From Bacteroidia bacterium (GTDB lineage Bacteria; Bacteroidota; Bacteroidia; UKL13-3), in contig JALONP010000021.1 of assembly GCA_025454875.1 (NCBI GenBank), positions 1 through 50,803 of the forward strand: a stretch of DNA of 50,803 nt. The letters are read 5' to 3'. This document shows, in pieces, positions 3,373 to 50,803 of the stretch. Made by a program: the position numbers and the translations under genes. The notes below the pieces were generated by a model. It did not search any database, was not told the origin of the DNA, and was given only the letters and a program-made list of their open reading frames with translations. The stretch's first letter is position 1. Each line of letters starts with the position of its first letter.

Positions 3373-4842
3373 ATGAATATCTATGATAATTGTTCGCCTT
3401 GTTTAAAAACACCAAGCTCATTAACAATGCTTGTTATTCTTTTTTTGGGAATTGGTATTCAAACGCACGTGGTTATAGCACAAGGAGCTTATCGGTATGA
3501 AAAGGTTGGGCATTGGAACGATACAAATTTGGTGTCTCAAAACACTCCGTTTTCGAATGCTAAACAAACTTGGAGCGATTTAATGGGTTGGACAGATGTG
3601 AGAAACAACCGTAAATACATTATTATGGGGTCTATTGATTCAATTTACTTTTTTGACATTACGAACCCTGATTCAATTCGAAAATGTGATGTATTTTGGG
3701 GTAAAAATCGTGTGATTAACAGAGATATTGAGGTATATCAACATTATGCTTATTGCGTTTCTGATAATGGACCAGATGGGGCATTTCAGTTATTTGATTT
3801 GCAATATTTACCTGACTCAGTCAGGTTGGTAAGAGAAGATACAACTATTAGCAGAAGAACTCATTCTTTGTTTATAGATTCGGTAAGCAAAAGAATGTAT
3901 ATGAATTCAACAAACTCTTCATTTGCTCCTGGAAGAGATGGAATGCAAATTTTCTCGTTGCAAGATCCTGAAAACCCAACTTACTTAGGGAGACTAGAAG
4001 ATATCAACGGGGTTTGCGGCAGGGTTCATGAAGCCTACTTTAGAAATGATACTGCTTACTGCTCATGTGAATACAACGGACTTCAAATTTTTGATTTGAG
4101 AAATATAAACAACCAAATACACTTAGGAGGTATTACGCCCCCCTACCCCTTTAATGGATACAATCATACAAGCTGGTTGAGTGACAACGGCAAACACCTT
4201 GTATTTACCGATGAGTTACCTTATGGCCTTCCAATAAAATTGTATGATGTTAGTGATGTGCGATCGCCTGATTATATCCTTAATTTTAACTCAAATACTG
4301 GAGCTACTCCCCACAATGTAATTTGGATTGGGAATAAATTATTTACATCTGCCTACGAAGATGGCATGTGGGTATGGGATATGACTGATATAAACGCACC
4401 AACAGTTTATGGATACTATGACACGTATCCAGAGAATGAGGCGGGGTTTTACGGTGGACTCAGTGGATGTTGGGGTGTATACCCGTTTTTTAATGATGGC
4501 GTTATTGCGGCTTCGGATATGACAAATGGTTTGTTCTTATTAAAATATAACCAACAGGTATCTGTACCGAAAGTTGCAGGTAACATGAATACAACAATGT
4601 TGGCATATCCAAATCCATTTGAAGATGCCGTGAATGTATCCTATTCTGGGATGCAATCAGAGTTGGTGTATTATAAGCTTTTCAATGTGCAGGGTAAAAT
4701 AATAGCTGAAGGTAGCCAATTGTTAGTTAACGGCAATAACAAGTTGATTATGCAAAATATTAACTCGCTTACTTCAGGAATGTATTTTTTACAATTAACC
4801 ACTCCCGCCCAGATGTTAAATCAAACCCTTATCAAGCAGTAA
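3373..4842 (+). CDS. Choice-of-anchor B family protein with T9SS C-terminal domain
   Basis: A secreted or surface protein of 489 residues. A hydrophobic export signal (about residues 18-37, ending near IAQG) is followed by a long LVIVD-like beta-propeller. Its blades carry motifs such as FFDITNPDS, QLFDLQYLPD, QIFDLRN and KLYDVSDVRSPDY, and the overall pattern matches choice-of-anchor B proteins (early MGWTD, histidines near the repeats). The last ~80 residues form a type-A T9SS sorting domain (AYPNPFEDAV, then GMYFLQL and a basic end), so it should cross the outer membrane by type IX secretion and be anchored or released. The ligand or enzymatic role is unknown. It is 14 nt downstream of lpxK and 4 nt upstream of the porin gene. 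Confidence 0.85.
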   Translation: MNIYDNCSPCLKTPSSLTMLVILFLGIGIQTHVVIAQGAYRYEKVGHWNDTNLVSQNTPFSNAKQTWSDLMGWTDVRNNRKYIIMGSIDSIYFFDITNPDSIRKCDVFWGKNRVINRDIEVYQHYAYCVSDNGPDGAFQLFDLQYLPDSVRLVREDTTISRRTHSLFIDSVSKRMYMNSTNSSFAPGRDGMQIFSLQDPENPTYLGRLEDINGVCGRVHEAYFRNDTAYCSCEYNGLQIFDLRNINNQIHLGGITPPYPFNGYNHTSWLSDNGKHLVFTDELPYGLPIKLYDVSDVRSPDYILNFNSNTGATPHNVIWIGNKLFTSAYEDGMWVWDMTDINAPTVYGYYDTYPENEAGFYGGLSGCWGVYPFFNDGVIAASDMTNGLFLLKYNQQVSVPKVAGNMNTTMLAYPNPFEDAVNVSYSGMQSELVYYKLFNVQGKIIAEGSQLLVNGNNKLIMQNINSLTSGMYFLQLTTPAQMLNQTLIKQ

Positions 4843-6733: not shown

Positions 6734-8175
6734 AGTTTAATGCAAATATTTTTTGGCTCTGTGAAAAACCGCATAGCCTCCCAACCACCTTCACGTCCAA
6801 CCCCACTACTTTTTACCCCACCAAAGGGGGTGCGTAAATCGCGCAATAACCAACAGTTAATCCATACGATACCACATTTTAAATTACCAGCCATTTGGTG
6901 CGCACGAGATAGATTTTCTGTCCATAAAATACTTGCCAATCCGTACTCTGTACTGTTTGCCATTTCAAGAACCTCCGTTTCGGTATCGAATGGAGTGATG
7001 GTAACTACTGGCCCAAATATTTCTTCTTGATTGGTTCGGCAGTTGTATGGCAAACCTTCAATTACAGTAGGAGCAATATACCAACCTTCTGCAAACTCCC
7101 CTTCAAGCATAATTGCTTCACCTCCGCATAATATTGTACCTCCCTCTTGTTTGGCCAAATCAATATAACTCAAAACTTTTTCGTAATGCATTTTACTCGC
7201 AATTGCACCCGTTTGTGTTTTAGGATCTAAAGGATTGCCAACTAACAAATCGGCTTTTACTTTATTGACAAATGCATCTTTAAACTTTTGGTAAATGGGG
7301 CGTTCAACAAATATTCTCGATCCGCAAAGGCAGATTTCGCCTTGATTTAAAAACGAAGACCGAACAGTTTCGGCCAACATTTTATCAAAATCGCAGTCGG
7401 CAAAAATGATGTTGGCATTTTTACCACCCAACTCCAATGACAATTTCTTAAACATGGGAGCTGCTACTCTTGCTATTTCAGCGCCAGTTTTGGTACCTCC
7501 GGTAAATGATAAAGCCTTAATATGAGGATGACCTGAAAGCGTACTACCTACTTTTGTTCCTAAACCATGCACAATATTAAGTACGCCTGGAGGCAAACCT
7601 GAATCGATACAAACTTGGCTCAGTAAGTAGGCAGTCATTGGTGTAATTTCGGATGGTTTGGCAACAACACAATTACCAGCTGCCAAGGCTGGGGCTATTT
7701 TCCAAGTAAATAAATACAGTGGTAAATTCCACGGAGAGATACAAGCCACAACACCAATTGGATTTCGGGTTGTATAATTGATTGCATGATTGCCCATTGG
7801 ATGAGCTTCGCTTGCAAAATGTTCGGCTGCAGTTGCAAAAAAACGAATATTGCTTATCGCACGTGGTATCTCGCCATTTTTAGCAAGCCAATACGGCTTG
7901 CCTTGATCAATGCTTTCTGCTTCAGCAAATTGATGTAATTGCTGCTCTATTTTATCAGCTATGGTGAGCAATATTCTTGAACGTTTTTCGACTGGCGTTT
8001 CGCTCCAACCTTTAAATGCAGATTTGGCTGCTTGATATGCTAGTTCAACATCTTGGGCGTCACTATCAGGGCAAAGAGAATAGACTTTACCAATGGCGGG
8101 GTTATAATTATCAAGGTACTTACCTGCCTGAGGTGCAATTAACTGCCCACCAATATAGTTTGCGATTGTAATCAT
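6730..8175 (-). CDS. NAD(P)-dependent aldehyde dehydrogenase (ALDH8 / 2-hydroxymuconic semialdehyde dehydrogenase-like)
   Basis: A cytosolic enzyme of 481 residues that oxidises an aldehyde to a carboxylate. The Rossmann N-terminus carries SPWNLPL and AKPSE. General base E248 lies in LELGGK and the catalytic cysteine is C282 in NQGEICLCGSR. The double-Cys context and overall style resemble the ALDH8/HMSD subgroup that acts on (amino)muconate semialdehydes, for example in kynurenine or catechol breakdown. No other gene of those pathways is nearby, so the substrate is inference. It lies 26 nt downstream of lipA and is probably co-transcribed with it. The stop codon overlaps the convergent porin gene. 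Confidence 0.88.
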   Translation of the reverse strand: MITIANYIGGQLIAPQAGKYLDNYNPAIGKVYSLCPDSDAQDVELAYQAAKSAFKGWSETPVEKRSRILLTIADKIEQQLHQFAEAESIDQGKPYWLAKNGEIPRAISNIRFFATAAEHFASEAHPMGNHAINYTTRNPIGVVACISPWNLPLYLFTWKIAPALAAGNCVVAKPSEITPMTAYLLSQVCIDSGLPPGVLNIVHGLGTKVGSTLSGHPHIKALSFTGGTKTGAEIARVAAPMFKKLSLELGGKNANIIFADCDFDKMLAETVRSSFLNQGEICLCGSRIFVERPIYQKFKDAFVNKVKADLLVGNPLDPKTQTGAIASKMHYEKVLSYIDLAKQEGGTILCGGEAIMLEGEFAEGWYIAPTVIEGLPYNCRTNQEEIFGPVVTITPFDTETEVLEMANSTEYGLASILWTENLSRAHQMAGNLKCGIVWINCWLLRDLRTPFGGVKSSGVGREGGWEAMRFFTEPKNICIKL

Positions 8176-8201
8176 GAAAACGTTGCTATAAGTAAAATAA
8201 A

Positions 8202-9068
8202 TTAGATATGTCGTTCTGCATGGTACGATGAACGAACCAAAGCTCCTGATTCAACATATTTAAATCCTTTTTCGAGCCCAACCGTTTTGTAAAAATCAAA
8301 CTGTTCAGGCGTAATAAACTCCTCTACCGCTAAATGCATTTTGGTTGGCTGTAAATATTGACCGAGCGTTAATACATCACACCCATGTTGAACCAAATCA
8401 TCCATAATTTCAAGTACTTCCGCTTCTGTTTCACCTAAGCCCAACATAATACCAGACTTGGTTCTGCGACCGCGTTCTTTGGTTTTTAAAATTTGCTCAA
8501 GACTGCGCTCGTACTTAGCCTGAGGGCGAACCTTACGATACAAACGTTTTACTGTTTCCATATTATGCGAAACAACTTCAGGCTTTTCATCAATTACTTG
8601 ATACAACAAATCCCATTTATTCATAAAATCAGGAATAAGGGTTTCCATAGTTGTATTTGGATTGAGTTGTTTAACCAACTTGATTGTATTTGCCCAAACA
8701 GTAGCTCCTTTATCAGGCAGTTCGTCACGGTTAACCGAGGTTAACACTGCATGCTTCACCCCCATTAATTGAATTGCCTGAGCTACACGCATGGGTTCCT
8801 CTTGATCGTATTCTTTATTGCGCCCGGTTGCAACAGCACAAAACGAGCAACTTCGGGTGCAGGTGTTTCCTAAAATCATGAATGTGGCTGTGCCTTCTCC
8901 CCAGCACTCACCCATATTTGGGCAATTTCCACTTTCACAGATGGTATGCAACTTATACTCATCAACTAACTTGCGTACCTTGCGGTAGTTTTCGCCAGTT
9001 GGTAATTTTACTTTTAACCATGAAGGTTTTTTAACTCTTTGTTCGGTAAGGGTAGGTAGTTCTATCAT
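8202..9068 (-). CDS. lipA: Lipoyl synthase LipA
   Basis: A radical-SAM enzyme that inserts two sulfurs into protein-bound octanoyl groups to give lipoyl cofactors. The auxiliary iron-sulfur cluster cysteines are C44, C49 and C55 ([12 protein letters not shown]). The radical-SAM cluster is C70, C74 and C77 (CTRSCSFC), and the C-terminal RSSYHAE motif donates the conserved serine. I place the start at the ATG at 9068. A GTG two codons earlier (9074) overlaps the upstream gene's stop, whereas 9068 leaves a 2-nt gap. It is the middle gene of a probable operon of outer-membrane protein, lipA and aldehyde dehydrogenase. Confidence 0.97.
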
Positions 9069-13421: not shown

Positions 13422-13429
13422 TATATTTG
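13422..13429 (+). promoter_or_regulatory. Candidate -7 box TATATTTG of the B12 operon
   Basis: A perfect TAnnTTTG match about 10-15 nt before the first conserved riboswitch bases, where a promoter for the riboswitch RNA is needed. No TTG at the usual -33 spacing is evident. Confidence 0.4.
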
Positions 13430-13440
13430 CCTCGTATTTG

Positions 13441-13612
13441 GTTTTCGAATTCATGTTCGAAATTAAAAGGGAATCAGGTGAAAATCCTGAACAGTTCCCG
13501 CTGCTGTAAGCATTAAAAACCTTTTACCAAGCATGGCCACTGATAATTTTTGGGAAGGCCGGTAAAAGAATGCGAGTCAGAAGACCTGCCAGACACATTG
13601 TATCATGCAGCT
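13441..13612 (+). ncRNA. Cobalamin (B12) riboswitch
   Basis: The conserved core is directly readable. A GGGAA...TTCCC helix (13470-13499) encloses the TCAGG/CCTGA hairpin and is followed by CGCTGCTGTAAGC. The B12 box GCCACTG is at 13536-13542, then GGGAAGGC, and GAGTCAGAAGACCTGCC at 13574-13590. These elements occur in the order and spacing of the cobalamin aptamer. About 100 nt separate the aptamer from the receptor gene start. They contain an inverted repeat GTTATG/CATAAC (13634-13639 and 13664-13669) that could be part of the expression platform. Adenosylcobalamin or another corrinoid should repress the downstream uptake genes. Confidence 0.95.
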
Positions 13613-13688
13613 TTCGGGAGAAAAGCGAATTGAGTTATGGATTTTTGACCAATCGGTATTTATCATAACCCATTTCCTGTTTCCATGA

Positions 13689-15608
13689 TTGTTGCGCAAA
13701 AAAAATGTTGTGCGCAAAAAAAAGACAATTGGTTTATGTATCCTCTTAAGCAGTGTTCAAGTTTGGGCACAGCGGAGTGATACGTTGCAATTGGTTACCA
13801 TCAAAACCTCACGATTTACAAAGTTCGCTACTGGCTCTAGTCAATATACAATTGATTCTACATTAATGCTTGCTTACAAAGCGCAACATCTCGCCCAATT
13901 ACTCGCTGCCGAAAGCCAAATATACATGCGAACATACGGTCCAGGATCACTTACAAGTTCTTCATTTAGGGGAGCATCTGCCGAACACACTGCTGTTATT
14001 TGGAAAGGCTTCAACTTGCAAAATCCAATGTACGGACAAGTTGATTTTACACAAATTCCAACTGAACTCACTGATCGTGTAACTATACAATACGGAGGCA
14101 ATGGCGCATTGTTTGGAAGTGGCGCAATAGGCGGAAGTATTAGACTTGAATCGACACCTACATTTGGCCAACCCACGCGTACTAAAGCAACACTTTTAGC
14201 TGGCAGTTTTGGACTGCAACGGTATTCTGTCTCATGTGATTGGGGTAAAAAACAAAAACGTTCCAAATTGCTTGCATACCATGAACAAGCTCGAAATAAC
14301 TTCACTTTTACCAATACAGCTTTGCCTGGTTCTCCTGAACAACGAATGCAACATGCCACAGCTCAACAATCGGGTGTTGTTTTGGAAAATGTGATGCAAT
14401 TGCGAAAAAAACAAATTGTGAGTGCAGCTTTGTGGTACCATCAAGCCAATAGACAGCTGGCACTTCCAATGAGTGTAACTGGAGTTGGAGGAAACCAAAT
14501 AGATAAGTCGTTAAAGGCAACAATTGATTGGACAAAATCCCATTCGGATTGGTTGTTAATGGCTCGAACGGCATTGTTTTACGACCTGCTCAATTATGCA
14601 AATCCAGTAGATATCTTTAGTGGAAATAGCCAATCGCTTACGAGTATTACCGAAGTTGAAGGCAGGTATACTTTGAGAGCTAAGCATCACTTTAATGTAG
14701 GTATTAACCAAACAGCTATTTGGGCTGAAAGTGATGGTTATGGTGGCCGATTTAACCAATTGCGTACAGCTGTTTTTGCTTCGTACAAAACATTTGCATT
14801 TAACCAAAAACTTCAATTATCAGCAAGTGTAAGAGAAGAACTGGTATCCTCAACACTTACTCCAATAATGCCCTATATTGGTATTGAATATAAACTGAGA
14901 TGGGGCTTGCAATTATTGGCCAATGCCAATAGATCGTATCGTTTGCCAACCTTCAATGAACTTTTTTGGAGAACAGCACAAAATCAAACCTTACTGCCAG
15001 AAAGTGGTTGGGGCGGAGAGTTGGGCTTAACACATTCAACACCAAATACCAATAAGTTACGTATAGAAAGTAGGCTAACCTATTTTGAACGTGTTATTGA
15101 TAATTGGATTGTTTGGCAACCTGTTTCACTAGGCAATGGATGGGCACCCAAAAACTTAAGACAAGTACATACAAAAGGTACTGAATTTAAAATAGCTGGA
15201 ACATTCATCGCAACACAAAGTCTTCAATTCACTGTACAAAGCCAGTTTTCCGGTTTACAGAGTGTAGTTAGCAAATCGAATTTAAATGATGACGAGGCGG
15301 TGGGAAAACAATTAATATTTGTACCAAGACTTACTCACCAACACCGTTTTGTTACACATTACAAGAGATCTTATATCGGATACTTGCATACGTATACTGG
15401 ACTTCGCTTTACAGCAAGCGATAATTCGGGTTGGCTTAACGATTATCAATTGGGTAGCATCATAGCTGGCCACAAGTTTCATATCCGATCAATTTCATTT
15501 GTTACACAGTTCCAATTAAACAATTGCTGGAACGCTGCTTACACCGTGATGGCCGACAGGCCAATGCCTGGAAGAAATTACCTCATTACTTTTCAATTTC
15601 AATTATAA
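13689..15608 (+). CDS. btuB: TonB-dependent outer-membrane receptor, BtuB-like (corrinoid uptake)
   Basis: A predicted TonB-dependent transporter carrying cobalamin or other corrinoids across the outer membrane. The order is: signal peptide (ILLSSVQVWAQ), a short TonB-box region (LVTIKTSRF), a plug domain (GSLTSSSFRG, VIWKGFNLQNPMYGQVD, GSGAIGGSIRLES), and a 22-strand-type barrel ending in NYLITFQFQL. The length (639) is BtuB-like, with no carboxypeptidase-regulatory extension. The B12 riboswitch immediately upstream supports the substrate. The start is unusual: no in-frame ATG precedes the signal peptide, and the candidates are TTG 13689/13692 and GTG 13710. An ATG at 13685 lies one frame away, separated by two runs of eight A. 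The next gene starts 6 nt after the stop. Confidence 0.87.
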   Translation: MLRKKNVVRKKKTIGLCILLSSVQVWAQRSDTLQLVTIKTSRFTKFATGSSQYTIDSTLMLAYKAQHLAQLLAAESQIYMRTYGPGSLTSSSFRGASAEHTAVIWKGFNLQNPMYGQVDFTQIPTELTDRVTIQYGGNGALFGSGAIGGSIRLESTPTFGQPTRTKATLLAGSFGLQRYSVSCDWGKKQKRSKLLAYHEQARNNFTFTNTALPGSPEQRMQHATAQQSGVVLENVMQLRKKQIVSAALWYHQANRQLALPMSVTGVGGNQIDKSLKATIDWTKSHSDWLLMARTALFYDLLNYANPVDIFSGNSQSLTSITEVEGRYTLRAKHHFNVGINQTAIWAESDGYGGRFNQLRTAVFASYKTFAFNQKLQLSASVREELVSSTLTPIMPYIGIEYKLRWGLQLLANANRSYRLPTFNELFWRTAQNQTLLPESGWGGELGLTHSTPNTNKLRIESRLTYFERVIDNWIVWQPVSLGNGWAPKNLRQVHTKGTEFKIAGTFIATQSLQFTVQSQFSGLQSVVSKSNLNDDEAVGKQLIFVPRLTHQHRFVTHYKRSYIGYLHTYTGLRFTASDNSGWLNDYQLGSIIAGHKFHIRSISFVTQFQLNNCWNAAYTVMADRPMPGRNYLITFQFQL

Positions 15609-15614
15609 ACACAT

Positions 15615-16565
15615 ATGAAAAACAACTACAAACACCTAACATTGGTAGCTTTGGTATTGGCTACCGGATTTACACAAGCACAAACCGTTTCAACTTTTGA
15701 AAGCATCAACCTTAATTCAGACTCTATTTGGAATGGTGGACCAAACTTTAACACCAATAGTATCGAAAATGGAAATGCGTTGTTTGAAAATGCATTTGAC
15801 ACGAGTTTTGGAGGATATTGGGCAAATGGGTTTGCCGTTTCATCTAAAAAGAATGTACTAAAAGACAGTGTAGCAAGTGGCTTTAGCCAACTATACACCG
15901 GAATTGCAGGGAGCGGTGCCGAAGGGAGCGCACAGTATGCCATTGCACAAAATAGAAGTATGGTGGTTTTAACCGGTGCTGCACAAGGAAAACAACTTGA
16001 TGGCGTATATGTGACCAATAGCAATTATGCATATTTAAGCATGCGCTGGGGCGATGCATTTGCACGAGCCTTTAATGACAGTGACTTTTTTTTACTTACC
16101 GTATTTGGTTATGAAAATGGAACTATAAAAAATACTACTGCATCTTTTTATTTGGCCAAAGATGGAGAAATTGTAACAGATTGGACATGGCTTGATTTAA
16201 AGCCTTTGGGAAATGTAGATAGTATAGAGTTTAGATTAACCTCAAGCGATACCGGAGCATTTGGAATGAATACCCCTGCTTTTTTCTGCTTGGATAATTT
16301 TACAACACGTGATGTATTTACCCGTGTAAACGAGGTATTATCGAAAACCACTTTAAAGCTTTACCCTAACCCAACAAGCAGTAAGGCAACCATTGAAGGA
16401 TTGGCAACAGGAGATTTAGTTAGTGTGATTGATATAACTGGTAAGACTATTATAGAGCAAACTGCAACAACAAATCTTATTGAACTTGATATTGAAATGT
16501 GGAACAATGGAATGTACTTGGTTGTAGTAAATGGAACAACCGTGAACAAATTGGTTAAACAATAA
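15615..16565 (+). CDS. DUF4465 protein with T9SS sorting domain (BtuH-like corrinoid-binding candidate)
   Basis: A 316-residue exported protein with a signal peptide ending near FTQAQT. The DUF4465-type body shows SIWNGG, FENAFD, YWANGFAVS, GVYVTNSNYAYLSM and WTWLDLKPLGNVDSIEFRLTS, and a C-terminal type-A T9SS domain (LYPNPTSSKA to GMYLVVVN) completes it. DUF4465 proteins commonly sit in Bacteroidota cobalamin-riboswitch operons. From memory, the gut-Bacteroides B12-binding protein BtuH belongs to such loci, but I cannot confirm that it is the same domain. Those proteins are lipoproteins, whereas this one appears to be delivered by type IX secretion. It is 6 nt after the receptor gene and 36 nt before the BtuG-like gene. 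Confidence 0.85.
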   Translation: MKNNYKHLTLVALVLATGFTQAQTVSTFESINLNSDSIWNGGPNFNTNSIENGNALFENAFDTSFGGYWANGFAVSSKKNVLKDSVASGFSQLYTGIAGSGAEGSAQYAIAQNRSMVVLTGAAQGKQLDGVYVTNSNYAYLSMRWGDAFARAFNDSDFFLLTVFGYENGTIKNTTASFYLAKDGEIVTDWTWLDLKPLGNVDSIEFRLTSSDTGAFGMNTPAFFCLDNFTTRDVFTRVNEVLSKTTLKLYPNPTSSKATIEGLATGDLVSVIDITGKTIIEQTATTNLIELDIEMWNNGMYLVVVNGTTVNKLVKQ

Positions 16566-16601
16566 TGCAACCACCGAAGAGATTTGACACACTTTAACTA
16601 G

Positions 16602-17645
16602 ATGAAACAACAGATTTTAACATATCTCCTAATTGGTCAACTGTGTTGGTTATTTAGCTGTGACGACAAACCCAATATTGTTGCACCAGTTGTTATTCCT
16701 CCTCCAGTCAAGGGCGCTGTTTGGATTGCCAATGAAGGTAATTTCCAAATGGGAAATGCATCGCTTACCGTACTTGATTTGGAGAAAAAAGAACTGTATG
16801 AAAATGTATTTGAAAATAACAACGGGCGGAAATTAGGAGATGTGTTTCAATCAATCAATTTTATTCAAAACTTAGCCTACTTGGTTGTGAATAACTCGCA
16901 AAAAATAGAAGTATGTGATCCAAAAACGTTTCAATCAGTGGCGATTGTTTCTGGATTTACTTCTCCAAGGTATATTGTGCAGCACAATTCAACAAGTGCA
17001 TTTGTTAGTGAATATTATGCTAACGCAATCCGAAGAGTGAACTTATCTACTCAAACGATTGATGGCACGATAGCTGTTCCTTCATGGATTGACGAAATGG
17101 TTATTCAAAATAATCGGTTGTATGCTGCAGGCGCAAATTCAAAGAGTGTGTATATAATTGATTTAACCACACAAGAATTAACAGACAGTATCATTGTAGG
17201 TAATGCTCCAACAAGCATTGTCATCGACTTTGAAAACAATCTTTGGATTTTGTGTAAAGGTAAGCCAGAGTTAGGTACCAAACCTACTTTACATCGTTAC
17301 CATTCAATAAATAAAACAATTGATAAAACCATAACACTGAATATAGACGCGGAAGCTACAAGGTTGCGCATCAATGCTCTAAAAAATAAGTTGTATTGGT
17401 TGGCAAGGGATGTGTATACTTTAAATATTTTGGATAGTAATGCAACACCACAAAAACTTGTAGATGGTATTGGAAAAACTTTTTATGGACTTGGTGTTAA
17501 TCCTAAAACAGAAGAAATTTACGTAAGCAACGCAAAGGACTATGTGCAACGATCTACAGTTATTCGATACGATGCGGTTGGTAATTATTTAGGAGATTTT
17601 AATGCGGGACTCATTACAAGCGATTTTTACTTTTATTACCCATGA
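16602..17645 (+). CDS. BtuG-like YncE/DUF5074 beta-propeller lipoprotein
   Basis: A 347-residue predicted surface lipoprotein. The signal peptide ends in the lipobox-like LFSC (C20), followed by DD, a pattern compatible with surface export. The rest is a seven-blade YncE-like propeller with the signature blocks ANEGNFQMGNASLTVLD, GRKLGDVFQS, YLVVNNSQKIEV, SPRYI and GLGVNPKTEEIYVSNAKDYV. These match the DUF5074/BtuG family. In Bacteroides, BtuG binds corrinoids very tightly and caps the BtuB transporter. It lies in the B12-riboswitch operon downstream of btuB, as in known loci. Its stop overlaps the next gene's start by 4 nt. Confidence 0.88.
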   Translation: MKQQILTYLLIGQLCWLFSCDDKPNIVAPVVIPPPVKGAVWIANEGNFQMGNASLTVLDLEKKELYENVFENNNGRKLGDVFQSINFIQNLAYLVVNNSQKIEVCDPKTFQSVAIVSGFTSPRYIVQHNSTSAFVSEYYANAIRRVNLSTQTIDGTIAVPSWIDEMVIQNNRLYAAGANSKSVYIIDLTTQELTDSIIVGNAPTSIVIDFENNLWILCKGKPELGTKPTLHRYHSINKTIDKTITLNIDAEATRLRINALKNKLYWLARDVYTLNILDSNATPQKLVDGIGKTFYGLGVNPKTEEIYVSNAKDYVQRSTVIRYDAVGNYLGDFNAGLITSDFYFYYP

Positions 17646-17833
17646 GTCAAGAACAACAAAAACTTTCGCGAGCTGAGTTAATAGAGGGTATCCATTATTA
17701 TATCAATGATATGGGTTATTGGGTATTTACAGAAATATACCATCAAATGCGCGGGTATTGCTGTAAACAAAAATGCAAACATTGCCCTTACGGAAATGCG
17801 CCCAGTGAGCGTGTTAGTCCAACACAATCATAG
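17642..17833 (+). CDS. DUF5522 small cysteine-rich protein
   Basis: A 63-residue protein matching DUF5522, with [16 protein letters not shown] followed by RGYCC and KCKHCPYG. The four cysteines (CC-x3-C-x2-C) look like a metal- or iron-sulfur-binding cluster, but no function is known to me. It has no signal peptide and should be cytosolic. Its ATG overlaps the stop of the BtuG-like gene (ATGA), so it is translationally coupled into the B12 operon. The 3' end overlaps the convergent biotin-carrier gene by 20 nt. Confidence 0.82.
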
Positions 17834-25421: not shown

Positions 25422-25964
25422 ATGAACAAACGAACCATAGCTATTATAACTATCGTATTTGCCGCGGCATTGTTACGCTTGCTTCCCCATGCTCCAAACT
25501 TCAGCCCTTTAACGGCAATGGCATTGTTTGGAGGTGCTTACCTCACAAATCGCTATTTGGCAGTTGCAATTCCATTATTAGCCATGTTGGTAAGTGATGC
25601 ACTTATGGGCTTTAATGGCTGGGCATTTACAGAACAAGTTGCCATTGTATACGCTTGCTTTGGTGCAATTGCATTAATTGGAACTGGCATGCAACGCAAC
25701 AAATCAATTTTATCAGTTGGAGCCTATACTATTGGCGCATCTGTATTTTTCTTTTTGATAACCAATTTTGCTGTTTGGGCTGGAGGTTTTGTACACCAAC
25801 CTGCACTTTATACTTTAGATGGAGCAGGCTTAGCAGCATGTTATGCAGCGGCTATTCCTTTTTTCCAAAACAGCTTAGCCGGTGATGTATTTTATAGCGC
25901 ATTGTTTTTTGGAGGTTTTTACTTAGCAAGTATCAATATTCCATTTTTACAATCACAACGTTAA
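25422..25964 (+). CDS. DUF6580 membrane protein (putative transport component)
   Basis: A 180-residue integral membrane protein with about five hydrophobic segments, starting directly with a transmembrane helix (AIITIVFAAALLRLLPH). The LLPHAPNFSPLTAMALFGGAY block is characteristic of the DUF6580 family, which resembles small-molecule uptake (ECF S-like) proteins in size and topology. The substrate is unknown. It is a single gene between the divergent M16 protease gene and a convergent metalloprotease, with its own terminator. Confidence 0.8.
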   Translation: MNKRTIAIITIVFAAALLRLLPHAPNFSPLTAMALFGGAYLTNRYLAVAIPLLAMLVSDALMGFNGWAFTEQVAIVYACFGAIALIGTGMQRNKSILSVGAYTIGASVFFFLITNFAVWAGGFVHQPALYTLDGAGLAACYAAAIPFFQNSLAGDVFYSALFFGGFYLASINIPFLQSQR

Positions 25965-26193: not shown

Positions 26194-28425
26194 TTATTCG
26201 CCAACCAATACTTTGGTACTGAAACTGCTGGTGCCAACTGTTGTTTTCACAAAGTATAAACCTGTGTTCAAATTGTAATCTTGCTTACTGAAAGTAATTG
26301 TTTGACCACCGGCTGTTTGGTTTCCTTCAAACAAGGTGGCTACCTTTTTACCAACGATATCATACAATTCAATTTGTACAGTTGATGCTTCAGGCAAATC
26401 GTAGTTAATCGTAGCTGTTTGGTTAAATGGATTTGGCAAAACAGCAAATTGAATGTCTTTGGCAGTAAGTTCAGAAACAGATGAGCGCACACCAACTGAT
26501 ACTGCATCAAGGTAAAAATTATTTCCACCTCTGTATTTGAACAAAATTCTGAACTTCACACTTCCCAATTGTGCACCCGAACCCACTGAAGCTCCAGAGA
26601 TGCCATCTGTGCGCCATTGATTTGGATTGATTGGAATATAATATTGTGTACCTTGAACAGCAGTACCTGCAGTTGTTAAGGGATTTGGAGTTGTAGCGGC
26701 AGCAGCCTCTCCGTCAACAGTTTTGCGAATGAGCCATGTTTTTCCGCAATCGTATGAAACTTGTATTTGCATTCCATCACGAGAATCGTTGGTGTTTGCA
26801 GCACTGATAAAATTGGCAGCAAATGAATAGTTGAATGATAAATATGGCACGGCCGCATTGCTTAAGTTGAAGGTCGGTGATACTAATGAGTACGAACCGA
26901 TTTCTATGCCTCTAGTTTCAAGCATTAGGCTATTGATACCGTTTACCTTGGCATTAGACGTTACTTTCCATTGATTGGTAGGATAGTCATTTTCAAATGT
27001 CCATCCGTCTTGTAAAAAGGTATTTAGATAATCCCAATCAGCGTTACTCACACCAGTCGAAATGGTTTTGTAATCAGCTGGACCTTCAACATAAATGTAT
27101 TGGGTTCTGGTAAATGAACTTGAACCGTTCGGGCCAGTACTTGTAAGTGTTACTGTTTTCCATCCCGGAGTTGTCCATTCAACTGTAGGATTTTGAGTTG
27201 TTGCTGTTGCTGGATCTGCACCATCACCAAAATTCCAAGACCAAGCATTTACGGTTGCATTATAAGTGTTGTCTCTAAAAGATACCGGACTTCCAACACA
27301 CACTCTGTCGCCAGGGGTGGTTGTACTAAAACGAGGAATTGGCAAGGCCGTGCACGTTGTTGCCCCGTCAACGCCAGTTGCAACCAAATTAGCTGGTTGC
27401 CACAATTCCCTGCGGTAGTTTTCTAAGCAAAAATGCATCCGCGCTACTTGTTGCAAAGTGAACATATTGGCGCATCTTTCCATACACTCGAAATAATCCA
27501 TGTAATTCTCTTGTTGATCTGGTAAGTCAGGATTATCCGTGCTGCATGAATTAAAATTGGCATCATTGACATTACGGGTAACACCTGCGGGGTTGTATGT
27601 AAAAGGAGTTTCCAAAATACCATCATTATCACTGTCGCAACTATCTCCTTGGAATGGATGAAACAAACCTAACCAATGACCTACTTCGTGTGTTGTAGTT
27701 GTGTGAAATGGGCTTTGTTTTGGGCTAATGCTTCCAGTTTGGCCAAAAAAACTACGATTAACCATGATACCGTCAGTAGAAGCTGAACTCGCCCCTCCAG
27801 CAAAAAATGGAAACTGTGCATAACCAATTACTTGCCCCCCGCTTGAAGATCCACCTCGGTTAATATTTTCTACTACCCAAATATTAAAATACCTTTTTGA
27901 ATCCCAAACGCTTTTTTTCTTCAACTCATCGTTACCAACACTCGATAGTTCAGTTTGGTAACGCACAATTCCATTAGTACAATTTCCTTGAGGATCTTTT
28001 TTGGCAAGCCTAAACTCAATTCTTGAATCAGCAGCAATATCCCTAAATATTTGACGGATATTACCAGTGTCGGAGTTTAGTTTTCTGAAACTTTGGTTCA
28101 AAAAGTTAATTTCACTATTGATTTGGGCATCAGAAATATTATCAGATGCATTGTTGTGAAAAACGTGCACTACAACCGGGATGATGTATATTGGCCCATC
28201 AGCCTTACCTAAGCCTTGTTTAGCTCGGTAATCATTAGGGTTGTAGTTTTTCATTGCTTCTTTGATTGCCGCATTAAACTCGGCCCTTTGTTTTGCCAAC
28301 TCAGGGTTTTGTGCTTCTAGTTCTTTATTGTGTTGATCTGTTTCACAACCAATTGGTTTTCTGGTTTGCGAAAAAGCAAAATGACTTACCAATATCATTG
28401 CTGCGCAGTAAAGAATTTTTTTCAT
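26194..28425 (-). CDS. Secreted M43-family (cytophagalysin-like) zinc metalloprotease with PKD-like and T9SS domains
   Basis: A 743-residue secreted protease. A signal peptide (ending AFSQ) precedes a propeptide-like helical region and a catalytic domain with the metzincin motif HEVGHWLGLFH (residues 246-256) and a Met-turn in ENYMDYF. After these come an Ig-like PKD domain (SWNFGDG), a jelly-roll region (SLVSPTFNLSN, FYLDAVSVGV) and a type-A T9SS sorting domain (LPNPFNQTAT, then GLYFVKT). This layout matches cytophagalysins and ulilysin-like M43 enzymes that process extracellular proteins. Secretion by T9SS is inferred from the C-terminus. It is probably monocistronic. Confidence 0.93.
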   Translation of the reverse strand: MKKILYCAAMILVSHFAFSQTRKPIGCETDQHNKELEAQNPELAKQRAEFNAAIKEAMKNYNPNDYRAKQGLGKADGPIYIIPVVVHVFHNNASDNISDAQINSEINFLNQSFRKLNSDTGNIRQIFRDIAADSRIEFRLAKKDPQGNCTNGIVRYQTELSSVGNDELKKKSVWDSKRYFNIWVVENINRGGSSSGGQVIGYAQFPFFAGGASSASTDGIMVNRSFFGQTGSISPKQSPFHTTTTHEVGHWLGLFHPFQGDSCDSDNDGILETPFTYNPAGVTRNVNDANFNSCSTDNPDLPDQQENYMDYFECMERCANMFTLQQVARMHFCLENYRRELWQPANLVATGVDGATTCTALPIPRFSTTTPGDRVCVGSPVSFRDNTYNATVNAWSWNFGDGADPATATTQNPTVEWTTPGWKTVTLTSTGPNGSSSFTRTQYIYVEGPADYKTISTGVSNADWDYLNTFLQDGWTFENDYPTNQWKVTSNAKVNGINSLMLETRGIEIGSYSLVSPTFNLSNAAVPYLSFNYSFAANFISAANTNDSRDGMQIQVSYDCGKTWLIRKTVDGEAAAATTPNPLTTAGTAVQGTQYYIPINPNQWRTDGISGASVGSGAQLGSVKFRILFKYRGGNNFYLDAVSVGVRSSVSELTAKDIQFAVLPNPFNQTATINYDLPEASTVQIELYDIVGKKVATLFEGNQTAGGQTITFSKQDYNLNTGLYFVKTTVGTSSFSTKVLVGE

Positions 28426-37800: not shown

Positions 37801-40473
37801 GGCGGCATTCGTTCAGCCATTGGATTTGTAAATGCAGTTGGAGGCAACGCTGTTTTAGAACCTACACAAGCAAATCCATCAGCATCTAAAGCCAGAGGAG
37901 ACATCTCGCAGTTGGATATTGAAAACTCATTGCGTTTTAACAATAGCTTGGTTATCGTTACAACTACTGCTGGAGGTTTAAGAAGATTGCTTGAGCATGG
38001 GATATCTGCAACAAGACCTGGCGCAACTCCTGGTCAATTTCCACAAGTAGGTGGTGTAGCTTTTAGTTATGATACTGCCAGAACACTAGGCAACGAATTG
38101 TGGTCGCTTGTCATTACTGATTCATTAGGTAACCGAACCGATACCATTGTACGTAACGGATTACTCGTTGGTGATACCACTCGTACCTACAAAATTGTTA
38201 CGTTAAATTTCTTGGCCAACCCTTCATCAGGAGGTTCGCCTGTAGGCGGAGATGGTTATCCATTCCCATCTGTAACAACTGCAAGAGTTAACTTAGATAC
38301 CGCAATTAAAACAACAGGAACAGCAACATTTGCAGGAATTGGAAGTGAACAAGATGCATTTGCAGAGTATATGCTTGCACGCCACAACACTGTAGCTACT
38401 GCGTTTAGCGTAAGAGATACCACTTTGCAAGGAGACAGACGCATTCAATTGTTAAATGCGCGTCCGGATGCTATTTTCCCAGAAACAAACCCAGCTATAT
38501 CGATTGCTGCAGCAAGAACAATTGCTCCGCCAAGTCTGGTTAGGGTAAGAGGCATTGTATCAAGAGCTTGGGGTCGTTTTATCTATATCCAAGACTCAAC
38601 CGGAGGTATTGGCGTACGTCAGTCGTCAGGAGCAATGGTTGATGCTATCACAGCTGGCACTTTAAAAGAAGGAGATAGTGTAGAGGTAATTGGTCCACGA
38701 AATGACTTTAACAATTACGCACAAATACAATTAGCATCAGGCGTATTTACAGGTGCAAATACCGTTATTGTTTTAGGCTCGAATAAAAATGTGACACCTA
38801 TTACCATTACGGTAAAACAATTGAACCAAGGTGGCGAACAATATGAAAGCCGTTTGGTTCGGATTTTAGGATTAAGAACAAACGTTAGCGGAACATTCGC
38901 AGCTAGTACAAATTATACTGTTTGGGATGGAACCACTACAGGTGATACAACTGTACTTAGGGTAATTGCTGCTACCGACACTGAAGTTGAGGATGCCCCT
39001 GCCCTTTCAATTCCGAATGGTGAATTTGTATTCGAAGGTATCCTTGCCCAATTCTGCTCTGGAAGTTCAGGTTGCACAACAGGTTACCAATTGTACGGCA
39101 TCCGCAAAAAAGATATACGTCCTGTTTTAGGTACGTTTGCTTTAGCTGCTCCAGCCAACAATACAAGATTGGTAACAGCAGCTAACAACCAAACTAATGT
39201 AAACATTCAGTGGACTCGCAGTGGCAATGCATTATCATACAAATGGTTTTTAACCTCGGCAAATGGAACATTTACAAATCCAATAGTGGTATTGCCTGCT
39301 AACAATAATGGAGTAGATACCACACTTACCTTAACTGTTGGTCGAATTGATTCATTGTTGGCACAACTTGCAATTGCGCAAGGCGACTCGGTTCAAACCC
39401 AGTGGACAGTATACAGCTACTTAGGTAACGACTCGTTAAAAGCTGGTCAGAACTTCAATTTGCATTTGGTTAGACAAGCAGCACCAATTGTTTTGGGAAG
39501 CTTTAACTTAAGCAACCCTGTGAACAACACAAGAGTAACTGTTGAACAAGGCAACCAATCGCTTATTACAATTAATTGGACCAAGAGCGCAAATGCGCAA
39601 CGTTACCGTTGGAAAGCCACAACTGTGACAGGCTCTTTCACCACACCGTTGCTTGATTTGCCATCAAACACAAATGGAACAGACTCTGCACTCACTTTAA
39701 CTTCTGAAGCACTTGATGCTACATTAAAGAGTTTAGGCATTGCAAGAAAAGATTCTGTTACGTTAAAATGGACAGTATATGCTTACCGTAATACTGATTC
39801 TCTAAAAGCAACAAACGACTTCCAAATTACACTCATACGCAAGCGCATCTTAGGTAACTTTACCTTAACTGCTCCTGCTAATAACCAAACCCTTGGTGTA
39901 GATTCAAATACAACAACACCAGTGAACATTACATGGAATGCATCTTCAAATGCAACCCGATATGAATGGTTAGCAATTCTTCCAGGAGGCAATTTTAATG
40001 CTCCATTATTACGTTTCAATTCAAATAATAACGGCCAAAATACAACACTTACCTTAATATCGGGAGCCATCGACTCCATTGTAGCCAATTTAGGAATTGC
40101 AAAAGGTGACAGCGTTTTAATCAATTGGAATGTTCGCGCAATTGAGCCTGAAGATTCAATTTTAGCGAACGAAACATTTGCACTAACCATTCGCAGAAAC
40201 AAAGCAGTTGGTTTGGCTAAAATCGACCTCTCAAATCAGTTTACCATCTACCCTATTCCTGCCACAGAATCGTTGAATATTAAATCAAACAATGGAATTG
40301 TGAATGCAACCATCCGGTTGATCGACTTAAACGGAAAATTGGTAAGCGACACTTTTGTTACAAAAGATTTAGCAAATACAAGCATTCCAGTTGATGGTTT
40401 ATCAGCGGGTGTTTATGTTTTGCTTATAGAAACAAACGAAGGAATTGCTAGGGTTAAAGTGAATATTCATTAA
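34864..40473 (+). CDS. Giant multidomain T9SS protein: choice-of-anchor I propeller, 5'-nucleotidase-like phosphoesterase, OB-fold, three repeats
   Basis: A 1869-residue secreted protein. Order: signal peptide (to about 24); choice-of-anchor I/LVIVD propeller (about 25-540; FSPDGKKVLVANEGEP, GPEPEAIAIG); metallophosphoesterase (about 544-880) with HSSDMESG, LSSGDN, GNHEFD near 644 and SGGNHAF; 5'-nucleotidase C-terminal domain (about 950-1170; NLGNLSAD, NGGGIRS); YhcR-type OB-fold (about 1212-1330); three repeats of about 120 residues beginning near 1422, 1545 and 1662 (shared pattern APANN, SYKW/RYRW/RYEW, LTLT, DSLKA); and a T9SS type-A domain at the end. It probably releases phosphate from extracellular nucleotides. 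The His normally following the first metal Asp is absent, as in other choice-of-anchor I fusions I recall. Confidence 0.87.
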   Translation: MIQHLSKLLLCLLLGVGTSTLAQINPQFIGRYSTGIYNAAAAEISAYDALSKRMFVTNGPDTSLKVVDISNPANPIQVNSFSIKPYGSDLTSVACYNGIVAIAVIDSLGKTENGKVVFLNAATLAYINQVDVGPLPDMLTFSPDGKKVLVANEGEPNVGYTIDPEGSVSIIDVSNGVANITQANVQTAGFTSFNNQSIDPKIKITGRIQSGGTFLRNATIAEDLEPEYIAISANSQTAWVTCQENNCIAVIDIPSATVTSLIPLGFKNYNLPDNKMDASDQGGTINITNYPVFGMYQPDAIASFQVGSTTYLATANEGDARADWGAANVEEIRFGNAGYVVDTVKFGGTSNVTAMKANTAMGRLNVTNRFGDFDNDGKFDSVFCFGARSFTIWNGTTGSLVWDSKDEFEQRTAAIYAANFNASNSNNTLKNRSDDKGPEPEAIAIGKILDSTYAFIGLERIGGVMIYNITNPTAPYFVNYINTRDFAVTPSLANLNTVGDLGPEGLVFVPAAQSPSGKDLLLVSNEISGTVAIIQLNSRSAFQMQILHSSDMESGLAAVVDAPNYAAIVDKLEDQHVNTLILSSGDNTLPGPFLSAGEDPSLQTPLRNTASLYYSGTQALRAAIGRTDIAIMNIIGFNASAFGNHEFDLGTTDLNGQIGVDIRNSGADKRWVGAQFPYVSCNLNFSNDANLNYLFTNQILRDTAFRTSPTITANSQKRGIAPSVIIVRNGEKIGIVGATTQVLARISSPGFTSVIGPQVDDMPALAAIIQPVVDSLISKEGVNKIILLAHLQQIANEKALAPLLRDVDIIISGGNHAFTADGNDRLGAGVVATERYPIITQSSTAKPMVILNTTSEWKYVGRFVCDFNTNGELLLNVLDSNINGAYIADSAMVTSLWGNYSDAFAAGTKGAGVRTLCTAIGNVITTKDGNLFGKSNVFLEGRRNAVRTEETNLGNLSADANLWYARQYDPQVRVSIKNGGGIRSAIGFVNAVGGNAVLEPTQANPSASKARGDISQLDIENSLRFNNSLVIVTTTAGGLRRLLEHGISATRPGATPGQFPQVGGVAFSYDTARTLGNELWSLVITDSLGNRTDTIVRNGLLVGDTTRTYKIVTLNFLANPSSGGSPVGGDGYPFPSVTTARVNLDTAIKTTGTATFAGIGSEQDAFAEYMLARHNTVATAFSVRDTTLQGDRRIQLLNARPDAIFPETNPAISIAAARTIAPPSLVRVRGIVSRAWGRFIYIQDSTGGIGVRQSSGAMVDAITAGTLKEGDSVEVIGPRNDFNNYAQIQLASGVFTGANTVIVLGSNKNVTPITITVKQLNQGGEQYESRLVRILGLRTNVSGTFAASTNYTVWDGTTTGDTTVLRVIAATDTEVEDAPALSIPNGEFVFEGILAQFCSGSSGCTTGYQLYGIRKKDIRPVLGTFALAAPANNTRLVTAANNQTNVNIQWTRSGNALSYKWFLTSANGTFTNPIVVLPANNNGVDTTLTLTVGRIDSLLAQLAIAQGDSVQTQWTVYSYLGNDSLKAGQNFNLHLVRQAAPIVLGSFNLSNPVNNTRVTVEQGNQSLITINWTKSANAQRYRWKATTVTGSFTTPLLDLPSNTNGTDSALTLTSEALDATLKSLGIARKDSVTLKWTVYAYRNTDSLKATNDFQITLIRKRILGNFTLTAPANNQTLGVDSNTTTPVNITWNASSNATRYEWLAILPGGNFNAPLLRFNSNNNGQNTTLTLISGAIDSIVANLGIAKGDSVLINWNVRAIEPEDSILANETFALTIRRNKAVGLAKIDLSNQFTIYPIPATESLNIKSNNGIVNATIRLIDLNGKLVSDTFVTKDLANTSIPVDGLSAGVYVLLIETNEGIARVKVNIH

Positions 40474-48405: not shown

Positions 48406-50803
48406 TTAATCTTTTACCAATTTCACAACCTGCATTTCGCCATTCATGTAGATACGCGCAAAGTAGATACCTGCTTTCAAGTTAGCACCTTCCTTAACTG
48501 CTATGGCATTTGCACCTTCTATAACAAAAGCATGACTTGTTGCAACAACTCGACCTTGTATGTCGACTAATTCAATTGATACAGCTCCATTTAACATAGC
48601 AAATACCGAAATATTAAAGTTATCGGTATACGGATTAGGAGAAACTGAAATAGCTTGAAGGTTTTCACTTACACTATTCACTCTTACCGTTGGAGAGAAC
48701 TCAAACTTACCATCAAAGTCAACTTGACGTAAACGGTAGTACCAAACAGTTGCTTTGTTGAATATACCTTCATCAGTAAAGCTGTAGTTCAATACTTTGT
48801 TACTGTTACCAGCACCCCTTACAAATGTTACTTTTTCAAAGGTGCGTCCGTCTAATGAGCGTTCTACATCAAATCCATGGTTGTTCAATTCAGATGCTGT
48901 AGTCCAAGATACTTGAACATTTTTACCTGCAGGAGTAGCAGTGAGCTGAGTTAAGGTAACAGGTAATGGGTTCATGGTAGAATCTGAACCAAAGCTCCAA
49001 ATACCATATACTGATACACCTGTACGAGATAAAACCGGAGTGGCAGCGGTACCTGTAGTTGTGACATGTGTACCTTGCAAAGTCCATGGATTTCCTGAAT
49101 TTATACGGTGTAACATTACCAAACTAGCTACATTGGTGATACCAACCATTGAGTCGGCATTCAAACTGATATCATATGTACCACCTGATAAACCATTTCC
49201 TACAGTAATAGTCCATAACCCATTAGGTGTTTGTTTATTGACGTTCATTATTCCACTAGTTAATGGCAAACCACTGCTGCTAAGAATATAATTAGGATAA
49301 AAACTAGCTGTAATAGTACCTAATGTTGCAGGAACTGTGGTATAGTTTAATACAACTAAGCGATCATGATTTACACTTGCTATCGGGAAACTATAACTAG
49401 CCGGAGTTCCAGCGATCCAACGGGTAAGGCTACCGCGTATACGACCAGGTCCGCTTGTTACCATTCCAGGCTGAGCTGCGCTGGTTCCTACCACCATAAT
49501 TAAAGATGATGGTGTGATATTTCCTGAATCTAAGTTTAATGAATCACTAATTACTAATGTTCCACCAGCACTGTTCAATTCAACATTGGTAGAGCCAGAA
49601 ACAGTAAAGGAAGAAATAGTTTGGTTAACAACATTATTTACGGTGATGTTACCTCCCATATTAAACACGAGTTTATCACTGAAACTTGTAAATGATCTTG
49701 CAGGAGTCCAATTTGATGCAGTATTGAAATCAGCAGGGCTTGTTTGGTTCCAAGTATAAACAGTTGGAGGAGGCGTAGGAACAACTTCAATATTGTATTC
49801 TTCTGCTTCTCCATATCCTGATCCTGATGCTCCACATGATTGATGAGCAAGTGGTTGGACATTTTCACCACCTCTAATTCTCATTCTGCAAATTCCTATA
49901 GGAGCGCTTATTGGTACCATGAAGGACACAGTACTGGTTCCGTTTGCTCCTGCATTAGCTGGAGTTTGCATTCCAATATCTTCACCAACATCTGAATAAT
50001 CGCCATCATCATTCCAATCTATCCAAACGAATGCAGTTTGGAATGCATTTGGGCCATAGGTGAGTGTAATGGTTTGAGACGTTCCTCTAGGAAGTTGAGG
50101 AGCTGGAATCGCATTATAATATGTTAATGGACCAGTACAGCCAGTAGCATTGTCTATACTACCAAGCTGAACTCGAGCAATAAAGTCGGTACTGCATCCA
50201 CTACTATAACTAACTGTACAATATTTACTTCTAATTTGTCTATTACCTGATGGAGCTGAAATTGTCGGCACTCGAGCAGTGTCCGCAACTCTAATAGTGG
50301 TAATTTCTCCATCAATAAAATTACCAACAGATGCGCCTGTCTTTACATCATAAGTTACCCAGAAATAATTGTTGCCATTTAGCAAAGCTTGAGAGCCTGT
50401 AACTGTTAAAGTGAAAGGATTAGCGGCAGCAGGTGCAAATGCCCGTGTGGTTCCAAACTGCGTTGTAGTAGCAAACGTACTACTTGCTCCGGTATACCAA
50501 ACTCTGATATTTCTGATATCAGCGGTATCGATGACACCGTTTAAATTTATATCGATACTCGTAGTGAAAACTGGTATGCCAACACTTGATGTTACAATTT
50601 CTAAACCAACAACAGCATTGTTGACAGAACCGACCTCAACCTTATTTGTTGCAACAGCAACGGCCGTTGAACTCAAATAACTCATTGGTGCAACAATCAA
50701 AACATTACCTGAAGGATTGCCAACAGAAGGCACTTGATAATTACCAAGCACTAAGATACTGTCTAAGGTTGCATCTAATGTATTGCTTATGGTTGCACCT
50801 GTA
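48406..50803 (-). CDS. GEVED-domain T9SS surface protein (5' end outside window)
   Basis: The reading frame stays open to the window edge, so at least 799 C-terminal residues are seen and the N-terminus is missing. Order in the visible part: a beta-sandwich repeat resembling sialidase BNR-type N-terminal domains (GNNYFWVTYDV); a GEVED domain (VWIDWNDDGDYSDVGEDIG, then YGEAEEYNIEV); a passenger-like beta-helical region (SSFTVSGSTNVELNS, GTLVISDSLNLDSGNI); an Fn3-like segment (VSWTTASELNNHGFDVERS); and a type-A T9SS sorting domain at the end (VSPNPYTDNF, GIYFARIYMN). It is probably a large adhesin-like or matrix protein; no catalytic motif is visible. Confidence 0.87.
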   Translation of the reverse strand, partial: TGATISNTLDATLDSILVLGNYQVPSVGNPSGNVLIVAPMSYLSSTAVAVATNKVEVGSVNNAVVGLEIVTSSVGIPVFTTSIDINLNGVIDTADIRNIRVWYTGASSTFATTTQFGTTRAFAPAAANPFTLTVTGSQALLNGNNYFWVTYDVKTGASVGNFIDGEITTIRVADTARVPTISAPSGNRQIRSKYCTVSYSSGCSTDFIARVQLGSIDNATGCTGPLTYYNAIPAPQLPRGTSQTITLTYGPNAFQTAFVWIDWNDDGDYSDVGEDIGMQTPANAGANGTSTVSFMVPISAPIGICRMRIRGGENVQPLAHQSCGASGSGYGEAEEYNIEVVPTPPPTVYTWNQTSPADFNTASNWTPARSFTSFSDKLVFNMGGNITVNNVVNQTISSFTVSGSTNVELNSAGGTLVISDSLNLDSGNITPSSLIMVVGTSAAQPGMVTSGPGRIRGSLTRWIAGTPASYSFPIASVNHDRLVVLNYTTVPATLGTITASFYPNYILSSSGLPLTSGIMNVNKQTPNGLWTITVGNGLSGGTYDISLNADSMVGITNVASLVMLHRINSGNPWTLQGTHVTTTGTAATPVLSRTGVSVYGIWSFGSDSTMNPLPVTLTQLTATPAGKNVQVSWTTASELNNHGFDVERSLDGRTFEKVTFVRGAGNSNKVLNYSFTDEGIFNKATVWYYRLRQVDFDGKFEFSPTVRVNSVSENLQAISVSPNPYTDNFNISVFAMLNGAVSIELVDIQGRVVATSHAFVIEGANAIAVKEGANLKAGIYFARIYMNGEMQVVKLVKD

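Follow-up and report, generated by a model that had tools for sequence, protein, structure and literature searches.

The question raised by contig JALONP010000021.1 of assembly GCA_025454875.1, from a Bacteroidia bacterium (the whole stretch of 50,803 nucleotides is called the window), is how a corrinoid-capture operon would send its binding proteins out of the cell when one of them, a BtuG-like propeller, carries a lipobox and another, a DUF4465 protein, ends in a sorting domain of the type IX secretion system (T9SS). The answer favoured here, with good confidence, is that the operon is a riboswitch operon of the BtuB-BtuG kind, and that its DUF4465 protein is a BtuJ-type catcher which is exported by the T9SS, not as a lipoprotein, and feeds corrinoid to BtuG-BtuB. 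The operon lies in a genome of 2.98 Mb (37 contigs, 99.97% complete) and contains the following features.

13422-13607, + strand: cobalamin riboswitch aptamer RF00174 at the operon head, full-length, positions 1-189 (Rfam 114.8 bits, gathering threshold 31.5).
13689-15608, + strand: BtuB-like TonB-dependent receptor, 639 amino acids, with PF00593 (TonB_dep_Rec) and PF07715 (Plug) above cut-off.
15615-16565, + strand: DUF4465 (BtuJ-type) protein, 316 amino acids, with a Sec-type signal peptide, a jellyroll and a C-terminal T9SS sorting domain.
15807-16301, + strand: DUF4465 beta-jellyroll domain (PF14717), residues 65-229 of that protein (143.1-144.5 bits, cut-off 25).
16359-16550, + strand: T9SS type A sorting domain (Por_Secre_tail, PF18962), residues 249-312 (43.7-46.8 bits, cut-off 27).
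16602-17645, + strand: BtuG-like beta-propeller lipoprotein, 347 amino acids, with DUF5074 (PF16819, 62.8 bits, cut-off 27.2) and the lipobox LFSC.
17642-17833, + strand: small Cys-rich DUF5522 protein, 63 amino acids (PF17653, 71.4 bits, cut-off 25).

Rfam, Pfam and PDB matches confirm this succession of riboswitch, BtuB-like, DUF4465, BtuG-like and DUF5522 genes, as the sequence-only reading had drawn it. The genes are separated by 6 nucleotides (BtuB-like and DUF4465) and 36 nucleotides (DUF4465 and BtuG-like) or overlap by 4 nucleotides (BtuG-like and DUF5522), and both the RF00174 aptamer (Rfam scan) and the PF14717 protein are the sole matches of their kind in the window genome.

The signal peptide of the DUF4465 protein is of the Sec type, with no lipobox cysteine visible by eye. 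At the other end of the protein, the Por_Secre_tail match is joined by a match to TIGR04183 (40.8 bits, cut-off 23), which bears out the earlier assignment of a type A T9SS domain. In the AlphaFold2 model (33-sequence alignment, predicted local distance difference test (pLDDT) 87.4, predicted template modelling score (pTM) 0.69), residues 243-316 match the C-terminal domains (CTDs) of PorZ (Z 11.1), T9SS-bound NucA (Z 9.6), mirolase (Z 9.6) and FspA (Z 8.3), and the tail is predicted to fold like the CTDs found in the T9SS translocon (8glk, 8glj). T9SS genes are present in the window genome, namely SprA at 2548.7 bits and PorV at 422 bits together with paralogues; PorV-family matches occur in all 64 genomes sampled from the window's order, and the window genome holds 118 Por_Secre_tail matches, of which 110 are over the cut-off. 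The protein resembles known T9SS type A cargo in the family and fold of its CTD and in its origin from a genome with SprA and PorV, whereas its vitamin-binding-type domain under a cobalamin riboswitch sets it apart.

Elsewhere in the window, four further T9SS tails are found at 4606-4815 (+ strand), 26203-26439 (- strand), 40246-40449 (+ strand) and 48415-48642 (- strand), one of them on an M43 metalloprotease-PKD protein at 26194-28425.

Among the 64 genomes from the window's order, 55 contain a DUF4465 protein, and all 55 proteins (the window's included, as in every count of order loci below) carry the T9SS tail, both by our own profile and by Pfam at E 0.001. Because it is kept on every one of them, the tail is more than a chance feature. 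A second, named set comprises the best 80 DUF4465 loci among at least 572 relatives in one profile scan; these are the loci nearest to a window-led profile, and they overstate the share of tailed proteins in the whole DUF4465 family. The tail is found by our profile in 78 of the 80 loci and, once the 11 that repeat order-genome proteins are set aside, in 67 (own profile) or 66 (Pfam) of the 69 further unique loci. The frame of L186 ends inside the start of the tail, approximately 100 nucleotides before the contig end, and the protein of L200 is cut by the contig end; the weakest own-profile score is 22 bits (L153), and Pfam misses three of the 69, L186 and L200 among them. The taxon labels under which carriers are deposited include Cytophagales, Flavobacteriales, Saprospiraceae and, with Taibaiella soli, Chitinophagaceae; some of the labels look wrong. 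The T9SS-tailed DUF4465 protein is a lineage-wide trait and not a local oddity.

Two DUF4465 domains followed by a single T9SS tail are present in 21 of the 55 order proteins and in five of the 69 named ones (L197, L167, L173, L179 and L192), as in the following locus.

L096, 7183-8844, + strand: tandem DUF4465 protein with one tail (found also at 20 more order loci).

The domain tree, whose bootstrap values are rough, suggests that the tandem form arose at least three separate times. Were the tail a relic, the DUF4465 protein would stay in the periplasm, and the available text of PMC13398666, a 2026 survey of DUF4465, predicts more than 70% of these proteins to be lipoproteins and ascribes periplasmic targeting signals to the remainder. 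A relic is nevertheless very improbable, given that the tail is retained throughout the order and nearly throughout the named set despite the change from one domain to two, that its model folds like the translocon CTDs, and that SprA and PorV are present.

The nearest fold to residues 20-234 of the model is BtuJ1 in complex with cyanocobalamin (9qpm, Z 25.6, 2.1 Å over 201 residues), the next matches being other DUF4465 structures, and by its model the protein is an augmented beta-jellyroll like BtuJ1. A relationship to corrinoid binders, previously suggested for this protein, is upheld by this fold, by the PF14717 match and by PMC13398666, the available text of which reports B12 binding by eight diverse DUF4465 proteins, down to 16% identity; Fluviicola taffensis F2I9N3 is a B12 binder according to the same paper. 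The corrinoid link of the family is thus already published. BtuJ1 has a KD of approximately 0.15 nM, and its corrin is surrounded by Tyr97, Tyr146, Asn241, Thr242 and Tyr245 (PMC12751083, available text). Tyr146, Asn241 and Thr242 are kept in the window protein: the equivalent of Tyr146, which lies in the DE helix, is the aligned Tyr within TNSNYAY, and the HI-loop motif MNTPAF keeps the Asn and the Thr and has Phe in place of Tyr245. A Trp present in all 76 DUF4465 domains of the order is likewise kept in the window protein, as is the aromatic ring. Since binding by the family is published and three contact residues are kept, with Phe at the Tyr97 and Tyr245 positions, cobalamin binding by the window protein is predicted and likely. 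The protein shares with the lipoproteins BtuJ1 and BtuJ2 the PF14717 domain, the jellyroll fold, Tyr146, Asn241 and Thr242 and a riboswitch operon with BtuB and BtuG; it differs from them in the two Phe residues and in having a Sec signal and a T9SS sorting domain and no lipobox.

Several observations weigh against a T9SS-exported corrinoid catcher. In the window protein, Phe replaces two of the three halo tyrosines of BtuJ1, Tyr97 and Tyr245; according to the available text of PMC13398666, 97% of homologues have the HI-loop Tyr, which makes it usual but not universal. The window protein also has the lowest Pfam score in the order (144.5 bits versus 149-194, best domain of each) and forms a long branch in the domain tree. 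The window genome lacks a FecCD-type permease, which leaves the inner-membrane step of corrinoid import unexplained. Finally, in a sample of 395 Bacteroidota genomes searched with PF14717, three of the eight DUF4465 proteins that could be classed, the window's own not counted, carry the tail and five of the eight carry a lipobox.

In this phylum sample, DUF4465 is matched in 11 genomes at E 0.001, nine of them over the cut-off, with the partial matches below the cut-off (G012, G308) left out; L071 (G077, 26.3 bits), which our own profile does not recover, is excluded from the counts. The T9SS tail is therefore not the rule of the DUF4465 family. The strict lipobox pattern matches all five untailed proteins of the phylum sample and two of 125 tailed ones (L154 and L172), where we take the match to be an ordinary signal peptide that contains a Cys by chance.

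The two tyrosine-to-phenylalanine replacements and the long branch would fit a protein that is exported by the T9SS and does not bind cobalamin tightly, the loss of halo tyrosines having re-aimed it to another corrinoid or ligand. We consider this improbable, in that Phe at the Tyr245 position is nearly fixed in the tandem proteins of the order (41 of 42 domains; 21/21 first and 20/21 second domains), where the change is tolerated, given that the eight tandem loci examined (L077, L082, L096, L105, L072, L081, L086 and L093) all have the riboswitch; among the single-domain order proteins, 4 of 34 have it, the window's among them. Conservation at the NTPxF/Y positions is taken from the order set only, as the 69 named loci were found by a pattern on that motif and their residue counts are biased. 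Retention of the aromatic ring, of Tyr146, Asn241 and Thr242 and of the order-wide Trp, together with a predicted fold that is unchanged, also argues for a cobalamin-binding catcher. Another corrinoid as the ligand is a real possibility.

The tandem proteins of the order often have an Ala two residues past Tyr146 in the first domain. Similar helix-loop motifs hint that the window protein is a shortened tandem form reduced to the second domain; this idea was rejected, since the domain tree does not support it and places the window protein near the single-domain proteins, with weak support.

The corrinoid would be passed to the BtuG-like propeller and the BtuB-like receptor. The receptor, which starts at TTG as listed or at a nearby GTG, has a best PDB match at E 6e-49, followed by 8p98, entitled 'Vitamin B12 transporter BtuB'; it scores 69.1 bits with the BtuB equivalog TIGR01779, far under the cut-off of 599.7 bits, and it is called BtuB-like on account of this shortfall and of the BtuB chains among its closest PDB matches. 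For the propeller, both the proposed BtuG/DUF5074 assignment and the lipobox, seen by eye, hold. Among the PDB chains most similar to the propeller (E 1.8e-44) are those paired with BtuB in 8p97, 8p98 and 8bmx, which we take to be BtuG; the entry 8blw is a BtuB-BtuG structure containing BtuG1. The propeller combines DUF5074, a lipobox and a btuB-like neighbour in a riboswitch operon, as is characteristic of BtuG, and is predicted to bind B12. Across the loci, the BtuG lipobox is matched by the strict pattern in 72 and by the loose pattern in 88 of 102 frames, a set that contains some duplicate contigs and some frames whose start is unsure, and most of the printed frames missed by the patterns have a lipobox-like Cys by eye. 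The best PDB matches and the presence of a receptor and a propeller lipoprotein in one riboswitch operon liken the system to the known BtuB-BtuG complexes (BtuB2G2, BtuB3G3 and BtuB1G1), whereas the T9SS-tailed protein between BtuB and BtuG (order BtuB-DUF4465-BtuG) and the lack of a FecCD-type permease distinguish it from them.

The operon is conserved with the tail. All 55 order loci have BtuB on the same strand and no more than 4.5 kb away, 52 of the 55 have BtuG so placed, and the DUF5522 gene is present at 38 of 55 order loci but at only 3 of 69 named ones. A riboswitch survey covered 44 loci besides the window (22 order and 22 named, of 123 unique), chosen mainly for long flanks; each of the 44 has one cobalamin riboswitch, which stands at the operon head in the gene maps drawn for related loci. 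A scan for the B12-box GCCACTG was dropped as a riboswitch proxy, since at many order loci it failed to flag a riboswitch that Rfam detected. In Flavobacterium, a riboswitch ahead of a TonB receptor is described in the available text of PMC9723704. Scanning the operon for promoters and for terminators yielded fewer sites than the shuffle mean (11 versus 17.0 and 3 versus 4.7, respectively).

The analysis establishes the operon with its riboswitch and domains, the predicted folds, the presence of T9SS genes and the lineage-wide conservation; from these we infer the riboswitch response, the secretion of the DUF4465 protein, its B12 affinity and its hand-over to BtuG-BtuB. At low cellular cobalamin, the riboswitch would permit expression of the operon, and the outer membrane would receive BtuB with its lipoprotein lid BtuG. 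Sec would take the DUF4465 protein across the inner membrane; upon recognition of its C-terminal sorting domain, the protein would pass through the T9SS (SprA, PorV) to end outside the cell, either anchored after cleavage of the tail or released. There it would bind corrinoid and increase its capture on the cell surface or farther out, and BtuG-BtuB would then import the corrinoid. The two export routes that the sequence-only reading had claimed for one corrinoid-capture operon, lipoprotein and T9SS, are supported by the fold match, SprA/PorV and the lipobox, with secretion being predicted.

The exported protein may also act mainly as a scavenger that travels on vesicles or is set free, analogous to a hemophore or siderophore, rather than as a surface helper of BtuG-BtuB. 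We regard this as possible though unlikely; its odds overlap those of the favoured explanation, of which it is a refinement. BtuJ1 and BtuJ2 of B. thetaiotaomicron are described in the available text of PMC12751083 as vesicle-borne, as supplying B12 and as likened to siderophores. The tandem proteins, and the fused forms described below, look built for capture. On the other side, type A tails can also lead to surface anchoring.

No T9SS-exported corrinoid binder is described in the titles and abstract openings searched, a coverage that leaves most subscription papers and preprints outside, and the suggestion of a possibly undescribed variant stands within that scope. The terms 'T9SS', 'type IX' and 'sorting' are absent from the available main text of PMC13398666, as are 'T9SS' and 'type IX' from that of PMC12751083. 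The T9SS-tailed DUF4465 protein is a new, widespread form of the known Btu capture system. If the favoured explanation is true, a vitamin-capture protein would have a second export route and the T9SS would be tied to vitamin nutrition and competition; predictions that are testable in culturable bacteria follow from it.

In many relatives, a second T9SS-tailed protein of approximately 330 amino acids, here called X, lies between DUF4465 and BtuG or adjoins DUF4465 (24 of 55 order loci and 50 of 69 named loci); none is present in the window operon. Examples, and the sole X gene of the window genome, are as follows.

L098, 5297-6274, - strand: protein X, T9SS-tailed, in a riboswitch operon.
L130, 6941-7939, + strand: protein X, T9SS-tailed, in a riboswitch operon.
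L152 (Taibaiella soli), 6952-7956, + strand: protein X, T9SS-tailed, in a riboswitch operon.
L229, 10350-11336, - strand: protein X, the window genome's own copy, on contig C1.

Around the last of these, no riboswitch and no Btu gene are found within the 19.5 kb examined. Of 81 X frames in the loci (duplicates included), 80 are tailed by our own profile and the other is cut by the contig end. A Pfam scan of 11 X proteins places the tail over the cut-off in eight and at 18.9-20.9 bits, versus 27, in the other three, one of which is the window genome's own X; no Pfam domain besides the tail exceeds its cut-off in these 11. NCBIfam gives a weak LIC_13355 lipoprotein match, far below the cut-off, in four of five X proteins. 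Three loci, L147, L149 and L192, encode X and DUF4465 as a fusion protein with a single tail. Among tailed proteins, the loose lipobox pattern picks out 17 of 125 DUF4465 proteins and 32 of 80 X proteins, and it was rejected as not discriminating.

The X model (pLDDT 95.0, 47-sequence alignment) has as its nearest folds BtuH2 (7biz, 318-593; Z 12.7 over 161 residues) and the BtuH part of BtuG1 (8blw, 392-660; Z 11.8 over 169 residues), followed with shorter alignments by PAPP-A (Z 11.3) and CBM32 domains (Z 10.4 and less); since the latter values are near those of BtuH, the fold of X alone is not decisive. In profile comparisons, remote-X profile A5 matches the C-terminal domain of a BtuGH protein over 57 columns (E 1.5e-6 for the pair, probability 90%), and PDB matches at E 1e-124 and 8e-56 identify this domain as BtuH. 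X profile A3 connects to A5 at E 5.8e-27. Weak matches are seen between A5 and a further lipoprotein-operon gene (E 0.0016, probability 16%) and between X alone and the BtuGH C-terminal domain (E 0.0012, probability 19%), controls against unrelated proteins staying below 3%. In direct sequence comparison with the PDB, no BtuH match appears to E 1 (A2, one X) or E 10 (A3), and a search for X in plasmids gave no match. Protein X is probably BtuH-like, and the BtuH similarity that the sequence-only reading had put forward for testing on the DUF4465 protein fits X instead. X differs from BtuH in having a T9SS tail in place of a lipobox and PKD domains, and in its absence from the window operon; the relatives of the window protein that are in tandem or fused to this probably BtuH-like domain in turn differ from BtuJ1 and BtuJ2. 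Of the 395 genomes in the phylum sample, 47 have an X match at E 0.001, nine of these a strong one, and riboswitch operons with BtuB-BtuG-X and no DUF4465 are found at L231, L233 and L234. These data point to a probable BtuH-like T9SS-tailed family that has no Pfam model.

The protein at L065:8201-10408 was considered as a BtuH and rejected, as it has no PDB match and contains a Recep_L domain instead. The riboswitch operon at L238 has, between its BtuG and its X-like protein, a weakly BtuG-like propeller with a T9SS tail of its own (7131-8492, - strand; tail 40.7 bits).

Regarding the inner membrane, FecCD (the BtuC family) is matched in none of the 64 order genomes and in 13 of 14 control genomes, which points to a missing corrinoid transporter. 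Because FecCD is absent from the order set, DUF6580 is proposed as a candidate inner-membrane corrinoid importer: it is present in 61 of the 64 genomes, is encoded in the window at 25422-25964 (+ strand), and at L230, L236 and L237 has X on one side and a weak cobalamin riboswitch (35-41 bits) on the other. A search of the paper library by name found no paper mentioning DUF6580.

Taken further, these results allow the tentative proposal, which we hold less firmly than the operon-level reading, that in T9SS-bearing Bacteroidota secreted BtuJ-type domains, single or doubled, act together with BtuH-like domains as 'B12-ophores' that serve BtuG-BtuB, and that import in the window's order ends in a BtuC-independent step for which DUF6580 is the candidate. 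The modules would be separate or fused with a single sorting tail, and released or held at the surface, so that the T9SS would take the part that lipoproteins and vesicles play in Bacteroides. The window genome itself contains six B12-binding-domain matches, of which the three scanned are MeaB-linked, radical SAM and MerR proteins, and it therefore probably uses corrinoids.

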